A DNA stretch of 64,000 bases from Pollutimonas nitritireducens (GTDB lineage Bacteria; Pseudomonadota; Gammaproteobacteria; Burkholderiales; Burkholderiaceae_B), in contig NZ_PDNV01000007.1 in the NCBI RefSeq assembly GCF_002849615.1, positions 62,001-126,000 on the forward strand, read 5' to 3'. The notes beneath the pieces were generated by a model. The model did no database searches. It saw only the letters and a list, made by a program, of their open reading frames with translations, and was not told the DNA's origin. Below, piece after piece: positions 25,395 through 28,848 of this stretch. Both the position numbers and the translations under genes were made by a program. Within the stretch, counting starts at the first letter, position 1, and each line of letters starts with the position of its first letter.

Positions 25395-26276
25395 TCATGC
25401 AAGCCGTGCCATTGCCGTAGCCCATTTATGAGCAACGGCCGGCGACGCAATGCAACTGGCCTTGTCAGTAACGACGCGGACCGCCCTTTCCAGCAGCTGG
25501 ATATCCGCCTCGTGCTGTCGCGCCACATGTGGGTCTTCGAAAAATATGACCCGTTGGCAACGTCGTTCAAGAACCAGCTCGGCGATTTGCGCATCGCCAC
25601 CCAAGGGACCGCTTAAATACGGCTGCACCCATGGCTGTTCGCCAGGCCAACCGCGCGACCACGCCAGCTCGTTCAAGCGCGAACTGGTTGTTCCGGTACC
25701 GACCCGCATGGCGAACCGGGACAGTAGATCAAAGTGCACGCTGGCGAACTGCACCATTTGGTCTTTCAGGGCGTCGTGCGCGATCATGGCCAGCGTTTGC
25801 CCCGTAAAATCGAACATCGGCTGCAAAGCAGGATTGGGATCGAGGCCCGTCGAAAGCCTTTCCACCTCTATCCATTCGATAGCACCCATCAGGGTCGAGA
25901 CAAATGGGCGGCCATGCGTAATACACTGACGCTTCAGCGCCAATGCTTCCGGAAAAATGGACGATGGATCGACGGGATCGATGAGATAAATTGCTCCGTC
26001 AAAGGGCGAAGCGCCGTCGCGCCCCTCGGTGACCCTTGCCACGAGTTTCATAAGACCGCCCTCGCGGCCATACGGATAGCGGATCAGGCCAGGATAGGCT
26101 TCCAGCAGGTCTGAACGCTGGATGGCATCGTAAGTTCGGCCGACAGTGTGCAGCTCGATTCCAAGCTGACGTATTCCGGCGGCCGAGCATTCCAGCCACT
26201 CAAAGATCGCGGCACCATAGGTTTCATGGTGCAAACGGTTTGCCGCCAAACCGAAGCGTAAAGTAGTGTTAGCCAT
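25395..26276 (-). CDS. Tandem methylglyoxal-synthase-like protein (degenerate first domain, intact second domain)
   Basis: 293 residues, about twice the usual length of MgsA (about 150). By eye it contains two MGS-like domains. The second (about 160-290) keeps every catalytic or phosphate-binding position known from E. coli MgsA: H167-D168 and K171 in IAHDALKDQM, the GTGTT loop (193-197), S222-G223 and the base D228 in LSGPLGGDAQ, D248 in IFFEDP, and H255 and D258 in QHEADI. The first (about 5-135) aligns along its whole length (FGLAANRLHHE, HTVGRTYDAI, AIYLIDPVDPSSIFPEAL) but has lost the His-Asp pair, the base Asp and the later His, keeping only the DP. Methylglyoxal synthase converts dihydroxyacetone phosphate to methylglyoxal and phosphate. 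The second domain should be active; the first may be structural or bind a regulator. It follows iscA on the same strand after a 101-bp gap. Confidence 0.8.
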   Translation of the reverse strand: MANTTLRFGLAANRLHHETYGAAIFEWLECSAAGIRQLGIELHTVGRTYDAIQRSDLLEAYPGLIRYPYGREGGLMKLVARVTEGRDGASPFDGAIYLIDPVDPSSIFPEALALKRQCITHGRPFVSTLMGAIEWIEVERLSTGLDPNPALQPMFDFTGQTLAMIAHDALKDQMVQFASVHFDLLSRFAMRVGTGTTSSRLNELAWSRGWPGEQPWVQPYLSGPLGGDAQIAELVLERRCQRVIFFEDPHVARQHEADIQLLERAVRVVTDKASCIASPAVAHKWATAMARLA

Positions 26277-26339
26277 GCTCGTGATAGAAAATTGATGGAG
26301 TCAATCACTATACCCGAGCTGGGTTGAATGCATGTGACG

Positions 26340-26351
26340 TTGCCGCGGCAA
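26340..26351. repeat. Perfect palindrome TTGCCGCGGCAA between iscA and the MGS-like gene
   Basis: A twelve-base perfect palindrome in the 101-bp gap, 26 bases past the iscA stop in the direction of transcription. There is no T-run after it, so a terminator is not convincing; it could be a small hairpin or a protein site. Confidence 0.35.
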
Positions 26352-26377
26352 TGCCCAATATGTTCGATCGACCCTAA

Positions 26378-26701
26378 TCAAACTGTGAACGATTCGCCGC
26401 AGCCGCAAGTGGCCTTTTCGTTAGGATTGGAGAATCTGAAGCCTTCGTTGAGGCCTTCGCGACCGTAGTCGAGTTGCGTTCCTTCAAGAAAAGGCAAGCT
26501 TTTGGGGTCGACAAACACCTTGACGCCAAACTGCTCGACCACCTGGTCTCCGGGGGCTGGTTCGTCGACGTACTCGAGTTTGTAGGCCATGCCCGAACAT
26601 CCTGTTGTACGCACGCCCAGGCGCAGGCCCAGCCCTTTGCCTCGTTTCTCGATATACCGGCTGATATGGTCAGCCGCTTGTTGTGTAAGCGTAATTCCCA
26701 T
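26378..26701 (-). CDS. iscA: Iron-sulfur cluster assembly protein IscA
   Basis: A-type Fe-S carrier of 107 residues that delivers clusters to target proteins. The three conserved cysteines are at the same numbers as in E. coli: C35 in TTGCSGMAY, and C99 and C101 in ATCGCGESF. Start chosen at ATG 26701 ([13 protein letters not shown]), the family N-terminus; the longer in-frame version starting at 26902 runs through the iscU coding region on the same strand and is an artefact. Only two bases separate it from the iscU stop. It is the last isc gene here: hscB, hscA, fdx and iscX, which often follow, are absent. Confidence 0.97.
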
Positions 26702-26703
26702 GA

Positions 26704-27087
26704 TTAGTCCTGGTGCTTTTCCTTGTAGTTCCGGACCGCCGCCTTGATGGCATCTTCGGCCAGAATGGAACAGTGAATCTTTACCGGCGGTAAAGCAAGT
26801 TCCCGAGCAATTTCCGTATTGCGGATCTGTATTGCCTGGTCCAGCGTCTTTCCCTTTACCCACTCGGTGACGAGCGAACTCGAGGCAATTGCTGAACCGC
26901 AACCATACGTTTTAAAGCATGCATCTTCAATGATACCCGATTCGTCAACCCTGATTTGCAGTTTCATCACTTCACCGTCGGCGGGCGCACCGACCAAGCC
27001 GGTTCCCACGCGAATATCGGCCTTGTCGAATGCGCCAACATTGCGCGGATTCTCATAGTGATCGATCACCTTATCGCTGTAAGCCAT
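26704..27087 (-). CDS. iscU: Fe-S cluster scaffold IscU with substituted first ligand (Cys37 to Asp)
   Basis: 127-residue scaffold on which IscS assembles 2Fe-2S clusters. The fold is fully recognisable: [20 protein letters not shown] at the N-terminus, [19 protein letters not shown] with the second ligand cysteine, and [14 protein letters not shown] with the third. The first ligand segment, normally GAPACGDVMKLQ, reads [12 protein letters not shown]: residue 37 is Asp (codon GAC) and residue 39 is Glu in place of the conserved Asp. I checked this on the complementary bases around 26970-26985 and no frameshift is involved. The LPPVK HscA-binding motif is intact. Start chosen at ATG 27087; the in-frame extension to 27144 overlaps iscS. 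The gene lies 19 bp after iscS. Confidence 0.93.
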
Positions 27088-27106
27088 CGTATGCGTCACC
27101 CTTCCC

Positions 27107-28318
27107 TTAACTTGCGACCCACTGTACCGTATCGAGGTCGACACCTTCCTGAAACATTTCCCACAGCGGCGACATATCGCGCAACCGTGCCACGCGGGTC
27201 GTCAGCAAATTTACCGCGAAATCCACATCGGCGGCCGTTGTATAGCGCCCCAGGGTGAATCGGATGGAACTGTGTGCGAGCTCGTCGCTGCGGCCCAAGG
27301 CGCGCAGTACATACGAGGGCTCCAGACTGGCCGACGTACACGCGGAACCGCTGGAGACGGCGATCTCTTTCAGTGCCATGATCAGTGATTCGCCCTCGAT
27401 GTAGTTGAAGCTGACATTCAGATTATGGGGCACGCGTTGTAGAGGGTCGCCATTCAGGTAAACCTCTGGAATCCTGGACAGCCCTTCCCAAAGCCTGTCG
27501 CGCAATACCCGGATGCGGTCGATCTCTGCCTGCATTTCGAGCCGGGCCAGACTGAACGCCTCGCCCATGCCTACAATTTGGTGCGGTGCGAGCGTGCCGG
27601 ATCTGAAACCTCGCTCGTGACCTCCCCCATGCATTTGAGCTTCAAGACGTATGCGCGGCTTGCGACATATATATAAGGCACCAACGCCCTTCGGTCCATA
27701 CGTTTTGTGTGCGGAAAAGGACATCAGGTCCACCTTGAGCGCCTGTAGATCGATGTCGACTTTACCGGTGGCTTGTGCTGCATCAACGTGGAAAATGACG
27801 CCCTTCTCTCGACATATCTGTGCGAGGGCGGCGATGTCCTGGACCACACCAACTTCATTATTGACGAACATCACGGAAGCCAGGATGGTGTCGGGCCGCA
27901 ACGCCGCCCTGAAGAGGTCGAGGTCCAGCAACCCGGAATCTTCAACCTGCAGGTAAGTGACCTCGTAGCCTTGTCGTTCGAGCTCCCGGCACGTATCCAG
28001 AACCGCCTTGTGTTCAGTCTTCACTGTGATAATGTGCTTGCCCCGCACCGAATGGAAAGCTGCTGCGCCCTTCAACGCAAGGTTGTTGGACTCGGTAGCA
28101 CCTGACGTCCAGACGATTTCACGCGGGTCGGCATTGACCAGTTCAGCGACCTGGCTGCGCGCCAATTCGACGGCCTCTTCCGCATCCCATCCATAGCTGT
28201 GACTACGCGATGCCGGGTTGCCGAAATTCTGGGACAACCACGGGATCATCTTCTCGGCAACCCGCGGGTCAACCGGCGTAGTTGCCGAGTAGTCGAAATA
28301 GATCGGACGTGATGGCAT
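27107..28318 (-). CDS. iscS: Cysteine desulfurase IscS
   Basis: PLP-dependent enzyme of 403 residues that takes sulfur from cysteine and hands it to IscU and other acceptors. The N-terminus [15 protein letters not shown] is typical. The PLP lysine is K205 in [12 protein letters not shown], with the cofactor-binding TSGATESNN and [10 protein letters not shown] segments before it. The persulfide cysteine is C327 in [17 protein letters not shown]. The C-terminal tail, which contacts IscU in E. coli, is present (ending in DTVQWVAS). It is second in the operon, 20 bp after iscR. Confidence 0.97.
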
Positions 28319-28338
28319 GGACGAAAGTTCCTGGTTTG

Positions 28339-28848
28339 TTAGGCGGGCGCTATGGATTTTATGGCGATGGTTGCGGGGCGGTCTACGCGCACGGTCTTTT
28401 GATCTTTGGTCGCTTCTTGTAGCAGTCGCATACGCTGCTGATCCACCAGATCCTGCAATGACACCGAATCCAGATAATCTACCATTTTACGATTTAACGT
28501 GGACCACAGTTCGTGTGTCATGCATTTACCGCTATTGCCATTCCGGCCGATATTGCAATCTTCCTTGCCTCCGCAGCTGGTGGCGTCCAGCGGCTCGTCG
28601 ACCGCGAATATGATGTCGGCCACAGTGATGTTGCGGGCCAGCCGCGCGAGAGAGTAGCCACCACCCGGCCCGCGCATGCTTTCGACCAGCTCGTGGCGAC
28701 GCAGTTTCCCAAATAGTTGTTCAAGATAGGATAGCGATATATTCTGGCGATCGCTGATGCCAGCCAGGGTGACAGGACCGCTTTGCTGGCGTAGTGCCAG
28801 GTCGATCATGGCGGTCACGGCGAAACGCCCTTTGGTCGTTAGACGCAT
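28339..28848 (-). CDS. iscR: Fe-S-sensing transcriptional regulator IscR
   Basis: Rrf2-family regulator of 169 residues that represses the isc operon when it carries a 2Fe-2S cluster. The winged helix starts [19 protein letters not shown] and includes [31 protein letters not shown]. Ligand residues are C92, C98 and C109 plus a His in CMTHELW; the gap between the second and third cysteine is five residues longer than in E. coli (C104), an insertion rather than a loss. First gene of iscRSUA. Two candidate IscR boxes lie 55-110 bases upstream of its start. Confidence 0.96.

Follow-up and report, generated by a model that had tools for sequence, protein, structure and literature searches.

Results

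An open reading frame with two predicted MGS folds lies downstream of isc genes

The window, a stretch of 64,000 nucleotides from the genome of Pollutimonas nitritireducens, carries a gene whose product falls into two halves, D1 and D2, each of which has the methylglyoxal-synthase (MGS) fold in the predicted structure (approximately residues 1–147 and 156–293; Table 1). The model of the full protein has a pLDDT of 88.7 and a pTM of 0.90. The original prediction had placed two MGS folds in this reading frame, and that is borne out; that the gene is encoded on the minus strand was not part of the prediction. With 293 residues and two domains, the product departs from the single-domain form of MGS. 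Proteins of this kind are already named methylglyoxal synthase in databases, owing to D2; no description of an MGS fusion or of a tandem MGS was found among the papers listed from the open-licence PMC literature.

Conservation was read from a 36-row alignment, made of the window protein and 35 relatives kept from 101 other fusion loci once sequences more than 88% identical had been dropped. All 36 matched both NCBIfam MGS models at E 0.01. The canonical comparison set comprised 26 MgsA sequences of 126–158 amino acids, with starts chosen by script; eight came from 10 single-domain loci in related and class genomes, and 18 from 84 phylum genomes with a match to the D2 region only.

Table 1. Features of the tandem MGS locus and of selected relatives. 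Positions are those of the window unless another locus is named.
Feature	Residues	Position	Strand	Remarks
Tandem MGS gene	1–293	25395..26276	minus	293 aa plus stop; ATG start
D1, domain of MGS fold lacking the MGS catalytic residues (as judged by alignment)	1–147	25836..26276	minus	fold, Z 15.9 to 6f2c; profile, E 2.4e-4 to 1wo8
D2, MGS domain with the full MgsA active-site set	156–293	25398..25811	minus	NF003559, PDB, fold, alignment
D1 Arg47-Thr48, corresponding to T47-T48 in the phosphate loop of MgsA	47–48	26133..26138	minus	R 35/36, T 36/36
D1 loop PYGREGGL, corresponding to MgsA SGPxGGD; Leu75 in place of the base Asp	68–75	26052..26075	minus	L75 36/36, R71 35/36
D1 loop DPVDPSSIFPE; D91 kept as D100, H98 replaced by I107, D101 by E110	100–110	25947..25979	minus	alignment
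D2 His167-Asp168, MgsA H19-D20	167–168	25773..25778	minus	36/36
D2 GTGTT, phosphate loop	193–197	25686..25700	minus	T194, G195, T196, T197 each 36/36
D2 SGPLGGD; catalytic base D228, MgsA D71	222–228	25593..25613	minus	S222, G223, G227, D228 each 36/36
D2 DPHVARQHEAD; D248, H255, D258, MgsA D91, H98, D101	248–258	25503..25535	minus	36/36
Gap from iscA-like gene to tandem MGS start codon		26277..26377	minus	101 nt
iscR-iscS-iscU-iscA		26378..28848	minus	upstream of the tandem MGS gene, same strand; names read by eye
TANGO2/NRDE gene		L107:10905-11660		Pfam
TANGO2/NRDE gene		L113:2448-3317		Pfam
TANGO2/NRDE gene		L163:5505-6278		by eye

D2 retains the MgsA active-site residues

Residues 160–269, within D2, match the NCBIfam methylglyoxal synthase model NF003559 at 88.6 bits, passing its cut-off of 84, and D2 matches MGS chains in the PDB at E 1.7e-18. 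The window protein stays below the cut-offs of TIGR00160 (71.8, cut-off 146.9) and Pfam MGS (13.1, cut-off 24.1). Predicted D2 superposes on a solved MGS structure with a Z score of 16.9 and an rmsd of 2.3 over 123 aligned residues. All 16 MgsA positions examined are kept, each in all 36 relatives, among them the equivalents of H19, K23, T45–T48, S65–G66, D71, D91, H98 and D101; D91 and D101 we take to be active-site positions of MgsA. Among 30 columns that are invariant in canonical MgsA (fixed in at least 24 of the 26 sequences), D2 keeps 25. The roles of H19, K23, S65, T45–G49, D71 and H98 in MgsA are as given in the part of PMC7843640 available to us. The claim that D2 is intact thus stands at every active-site position tested. 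Judged by its residues and predicted fold, D2 is very likely to produce methylglyoxal, using dihydroxyacetone phosphate (DHAP) as substrate and the ordinary MgsA residues.

D2 also has a signature of its own. H250, R253, Q254 and L261, in the loop after DP and in the next helix, lie near the site and are fixed in 35–36 of the 36 relatives; an insertion around GWP..W precedes SGPLGGD. The substrate of D2 may therefore differ from that of MgsA, and D2 would then be a phosphate lyase acting on another compound rather than a methylglyoxal synthase. The long stem of the D2 clade in the domain tree (2.91), the unreached TIGR00160 and Pfam cut-offs and the location of one relative beside edd-eda are compatible with such an enzyme. 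Against it stand the conservation of all MgsA catalytic and phosphate-contact positions in 36/36 relatives and the passing of the NF003559 cut-off, and we consider this alternative very unlikely.

Three cysteines, C118 of D1 and C240 and C275 of D2, are invariant (36/36 each). A role for them in Fe–S or redox chemistry was considered; C118 and C275 are each also found in 10 of the 26 canonical MgsA sequences, leaving only C240 special; a cysteine is present at the position of Cys240 in none of the 26.

D1 shares the predicted fold, with a pocket that appears rebuilt

As a single sequence, D1 matched no NCBIfam model at E 10 and no Pfam family at E 1, and a search of its own genome with the canonical MGS model at E 10 found D2 alone. 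One of the 36 D1 rows matched an unrelated Pfam family at 0.25, and in the whole protein a weak second NF003559 stretch appeared at the limit of E 10, which is not counted here given the lack of any NCBIfam match to D1 by itself. The profile of all 36 D1 rows, in contrast, reached the MGS 1wo8 at E 2.4e-4. Two MGS matches had been proposed as an HMM check of the tandem architecture: the one in D2 is obtained directly, and the one in D1 from the profile, not from the single sequence. Compared by hhalign, the D1 and canonical MGS profiles, both of them shallow, gave a probability of 94 and E 1.2e-7. Folded alone, D1 was modelled with a pLDDT of 89.3 and a pTM of 0.85, and the model aligned with Bacillus subtilis MgsA (6f2c) at Z 15.9, with an rmsd of 2.2 over 122 residues; among the families in the fold tables none ranked above MGS. 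The structural check proposed for the region of residues 1–140 therefore came out in favour of an MGS fold.

At the place of the base D71, D1 has Leu75 in 36/36 relatives, and at that of H98 it has Ile107 in 33/36, in agreement with the original prediction that the base aspartate and the later histidine are missing. The substitutions of T45 by V45, T47 by R47 and D101 by E110 are found in 35 relatives each. D1 was also said to keep only the DP motif. This understates its resemblance to MgsA: T48, G66, G70, D91, P92 and R107 are retained in all 36 relatives and G46 in 35, and across the 30 canonical-invariant columns D1 keeps 13, refixes 11 and varies at six. The claim that Asn-Arg replaces His-Asp depends on the alignment, because D1 has a four-residue insertion after strand 1; His17 (34/36) can occupy the H19 place, with Asn13 as the alternative.

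Arg47, Arg71, Leu75, Lys77 and Glu110 are new residues fixed at lost MgsA positions. The near-fixed polar or charged residues of D1 are R47, R66, R71, K77, D100, D103, E110, K115, R116, His16 and His17 (34–36/36). In the most divergent relative, L029, Arg47, Arg71, Lys77, Asn13, His16 and His17 are absent and Arg66 is kept. Judged by its residues, with leucine in place of the base D71 in every one of the 36 relatives, D1 is incapable of MGS chemistry. Its pocket appears to have been rebuilt, the catalytic base and the proton-transfer histidine having gone and Arg47, Arg71, Lys77 and Glu110 being fixed in the pocket loops.

D1 is as constrained as D2

Columns identical in at least 33 of the 36 relatives number 67/137 in D1 and 68/131 in D2. 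Those of D1 are over-represented in the pocket loops (24/34, as compared with 43/103 elsewhere; Fisher P 0.005), these being strand-end loops picked from the predicted secondary structure after the alignment had been seen. Comparisons of the window gene with relatives gave dN/dS of 0.026–0.104 for D1 and 0.041–0.120 for D2, from the nine of 20 pairs usable in each half, the others being saturated at synonymous sites; the closest pair gave 0.026 and 0.047, respectively. The loss of catalytic residues might suggest that D1 is a functionless, decaying relic of a duplication. Such decay was rejected on the low dN/dS together with a count of fixed columns equal to that of D2, in relatives from two bacterial orders; the relic reading is almost certainly wrong. 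Since D1 is strongly constrained and has fixed residues of its own, ‘rebuilt’ describes it better than ‘dead’, the word first applied to it.

The two halves had been said to align to MgsA and to each other. The first part stands; for the second the profile match is weak, hhalign of D1 against D2 giving a probability of 7, as against 94 for D1 with canonical MGS. A tree built from 68 domain rows placed all D1 rows in one clade (100/99) and all D2 rows in another (100/100), the latter lying among canonical MgsA; the D1 stem is also long, and its length precludes placing the D1 root. Any kinship between D1 and D2 is not detectably closer than that of either half to canonical MgsA, so that duplication followed by loss, as originally proposed, is not supported. 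A recent internal duplication was rejected, given the weak D1–D2 profile match and the separate, long-stemmed clades. On the sequence comparisons, a fusion of two old paralogues would fit as well as duplication then loss. The fusion is old, being found in Alcaligenaceae, Lysobacterales and at least one member of the Comamonadaceae.

Distribution of the fusion

With the P. nitritireducens genome counted in each sample, fusion proteins were identified in 18/61 related genomes, where the homology spans the full length (17 of them among 37 genomes of its own family), in 5/274 class genomes, the divergent L029 included, and in 11/398 phylum genomes, for which up to six candidates per genome were scored; the three samples together yield 28 fusion genomes. 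A named scan returned at least 451 confirmed relatives. The best 80 of these 451, examined by name, belong to Alcaligenaceae (including Pollutimonas, Pusillimonas, Bordetella, Achromobacter, Alcaligenes and Advenella), to Lysobacterales (Pseudoxanthomonas, Dyella and MAGs) and to other MAGs. A plasmid of Acidovorax sp. DW039 (Comamonadaceae) encodes a protein of the same tandem architecture, WP_338799346.1, annotated as methylglyoxal synthase and 52.2% identical over 96% of the query; it lies outside the 36-row alignment and differs in having no isc genes among its annotated neighbours and DV for DP in D2.

A search of the 398 phylum genomes with D1 gave 11 matches, all within the fusion, and hence no solo D1. 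Another 84 of these genomes have a match to the D2 region only, at 78.2 bits or less, as compared with at least 462 bits for the fusions, and D2 of this type was not found without D1 in the genomes sampled. We infer from this that the two domains depend on each other. No second MGS match was seen in the fusion genomes (none in 28, of which 18 were rechecked with the canonical model), and none was found in the P. nitritireducens genome with that model at E 10. About 22% of the non-fusion phylum genomes have MgsA, and finding it in 0/11 fusion genomes has a chance of 0.07, weak evidence for mutual exclusion of the fusion and canonical MgsA. Glyoxalase I is present in the P. nitritireducens genome. 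One of the four other Pollutimonas genomes (G002) has neither the tandem gene nor an MgsA match at E 1e-5, from which it follows that the gene can be lost.

That D1 and D2 of this type were not found apart would also be expected if D1 were a structural pseudo-subunit only, completing a pseudo-dimer and stabilizing D2 without binding a regulatory ligand; MgsA itself works as an oligomer. This explanation is unlikely in our judgement, as the conservation of D1 is concentrated in its pocket loops.

Gene neighbourhood

No terminator-like site is listed on the minus strand within 26277..26377, between iscA and the tandem gene. Neighbours were assigned by tblastn with named proteins: in 56 of the best 80 of the 451 named loci, isc genes precede the tandem gene on its own strand. 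In 51 of these the distance is within 261 nt and in six it is within 6 nt, as estimated from tblastn ends, and the placement holds for the short operon (iscRSUA) and for the long one (with hscBA, fdx and iscX). The remaining 24 loci comprise four with isc 4–5 kb upstream, three on truncated contigs where part of the isc set immediately precedes the tandem gene, two that show no isc (one at a contig end and one in Pollutimonas, L042, with 10 kb upstream), and 15 without isc, nine of which have 10 kb of upstream sequence. No isc genes lie upstream in Advenella, Jezberella and Sheuella (Alcaligenaceae) or in the Lysobacterales loci.

The position beside isc that had been singled out as unusual is therefore real and recurs in most Alcaligenaceae loci, yet it is absent from several Alcaligenaceae genera and from the Lysobacterales loci. 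For this reason a functional link to isc was rejected: the order is a lineage trait, since the 15 loci without isc include Alcaligenaceae, and it says little about mechanism. The tandem gene is probably co-transcribed with the isc genes, and we read nothing further into the arrangement.

The isc operon of the window consists of iscRSUA only; at the corresponding position some relatives have hscBA and fdx, and most of these iscX too. The best HscA match in the P. nitritireducens genome scores 620.3 bits, below the family cut-off of 708.55, and HscA may be absent.

In L029, the start codon of the tandem gene and the stop codon of eda overlap (ATGA), edd lying immediately upstream. The Entner–Doudoroff route yields triose phosphate, a source of DHAP, and this single case thereby points to sugar catabolism. 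The L029 protein has an extra C-terminal part of approximately 216 amino acids (L029:2350-2997), for which no significant match was found in Pfam, NCBIfam or PDB sequences.

Two other neighbours were noted. In three of the six Lysobacterales-type loci read, the gene next after the tandem gene is of the TANGO2/NRDE type (Table 1), which is not so in L114, L164 and L165; L163, L164 and L165 have no family name and were assigned to the Lysobacterales type. In one genome from the order to which P. nitritireducens belongs, the tandem gene is immediately followed by one of the VOC/glyoxalase family (L126:2413-2799), and the two may form a make-and-remove pair.

Discussion

The fused protein is a known kind of enzyme in a new variant, to which a regulatory hypothesis is attached. 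We propose that the gene encodes a two-domain methylglyoxal synthase in which D2 would catalyse the conversion of DHAP to methylglyoxal; D1 would stand in for an adjacent subunit of the MGS oligomer, and would bind an anionic metabolite or phosphate and so tune D2. For this reading as a whole, an active MGS that carries its own non-catalytic domain as oligomer partner and probably as sensor of an anionic ligand, we put the chances at about even. Glyoxalase I in the P. nitritireducens genome, the edd-eda context of L029 and the VOC glyoxalase beside the tandem gene in L126 also speak in its favour. The set Arg47, Arg71 and Lys77 makes an anionic ligand likely. As L029 lacks all three, the ligand reading may not hold across the family.

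MgsA (NF003559, TIGR00160; 1b93, 6f2c, 1wo8) shares its fold with both halves, and all of its tested active-site residues are in D2. It is a single-domain protein that forms a hexamer under phosphate control, whereas here two MGS folds are fused, the first without the base; D2 differs from it in the loop signature DPHVARQHEAD and in the insertion before SGPLGGD. The MGS-like domain of carbamoyl-phosphate synthetase (CarB/CPS1) is likewise an MGS fold inside a larger enzyme, with a match to D1 at Z 12.1. The role of that domain in CarB is non-catalytic and allosteric, and its action on its own enzyme provides the analogy for tuning by D1. Unlike it, D1 is attached to an MGS-type D2, with no carbamoyl-phosphate synthetase fusion, and D1 is nearer in fold to MgsA.

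The IMP cyclohydrolase domain of PurH/ATIC is another MGS-like fold put to a different use, and it raises the alternative that D1 is a second enzyme, whose rebuilt pocket converts a phosphorylated or anionic compound by some other reaction. The near-fixed polar and charged residues of D1 would suit an active site, and D1 resembles ATIC/PurH at Z 9.5. This similarity is weaker than, and well below, that to MgsA, the closest fold, and the 293-residue reading frame, comprising D1 and D2 only, has no transformylase domain. In addition, no consistent neighbour suggests a substrate, and solo D1 is absent from the 398 genomes searched. A second enzyme is in our view distinctly unlikely.

We return to the regulatory reading of D1, which was part of the original prediction and is plausible. 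A wider proposal is that the MGS fold has been rebuilt in D1 into a sensor or a second site of catalysis, and that production of methylglyoxal is thereby turned on or off by a metabolite of a sugar pathway. Such control, exerted inside a single chain, would be an alternative to that of a single-domain hexamer. We hold this tentatively, at somewhat less than an even chance.

Methylglyoxal is toxic, and to our knowledge the means by which bacteria restrain its synthesis are only partly known. Genes named ‘methylglyoxal synthase’ can carry an unannotated first half, and in D1 the shape of a fold has been kept while its pocket has been rewritten. D1 probably steers or supports D2, an enzyme with a toxic product. 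In Lysobacterales and in Alcaligenaceae, among them Bordetella and Achromobacter, this enzyme would carry a conserved, non-catalytic twin.
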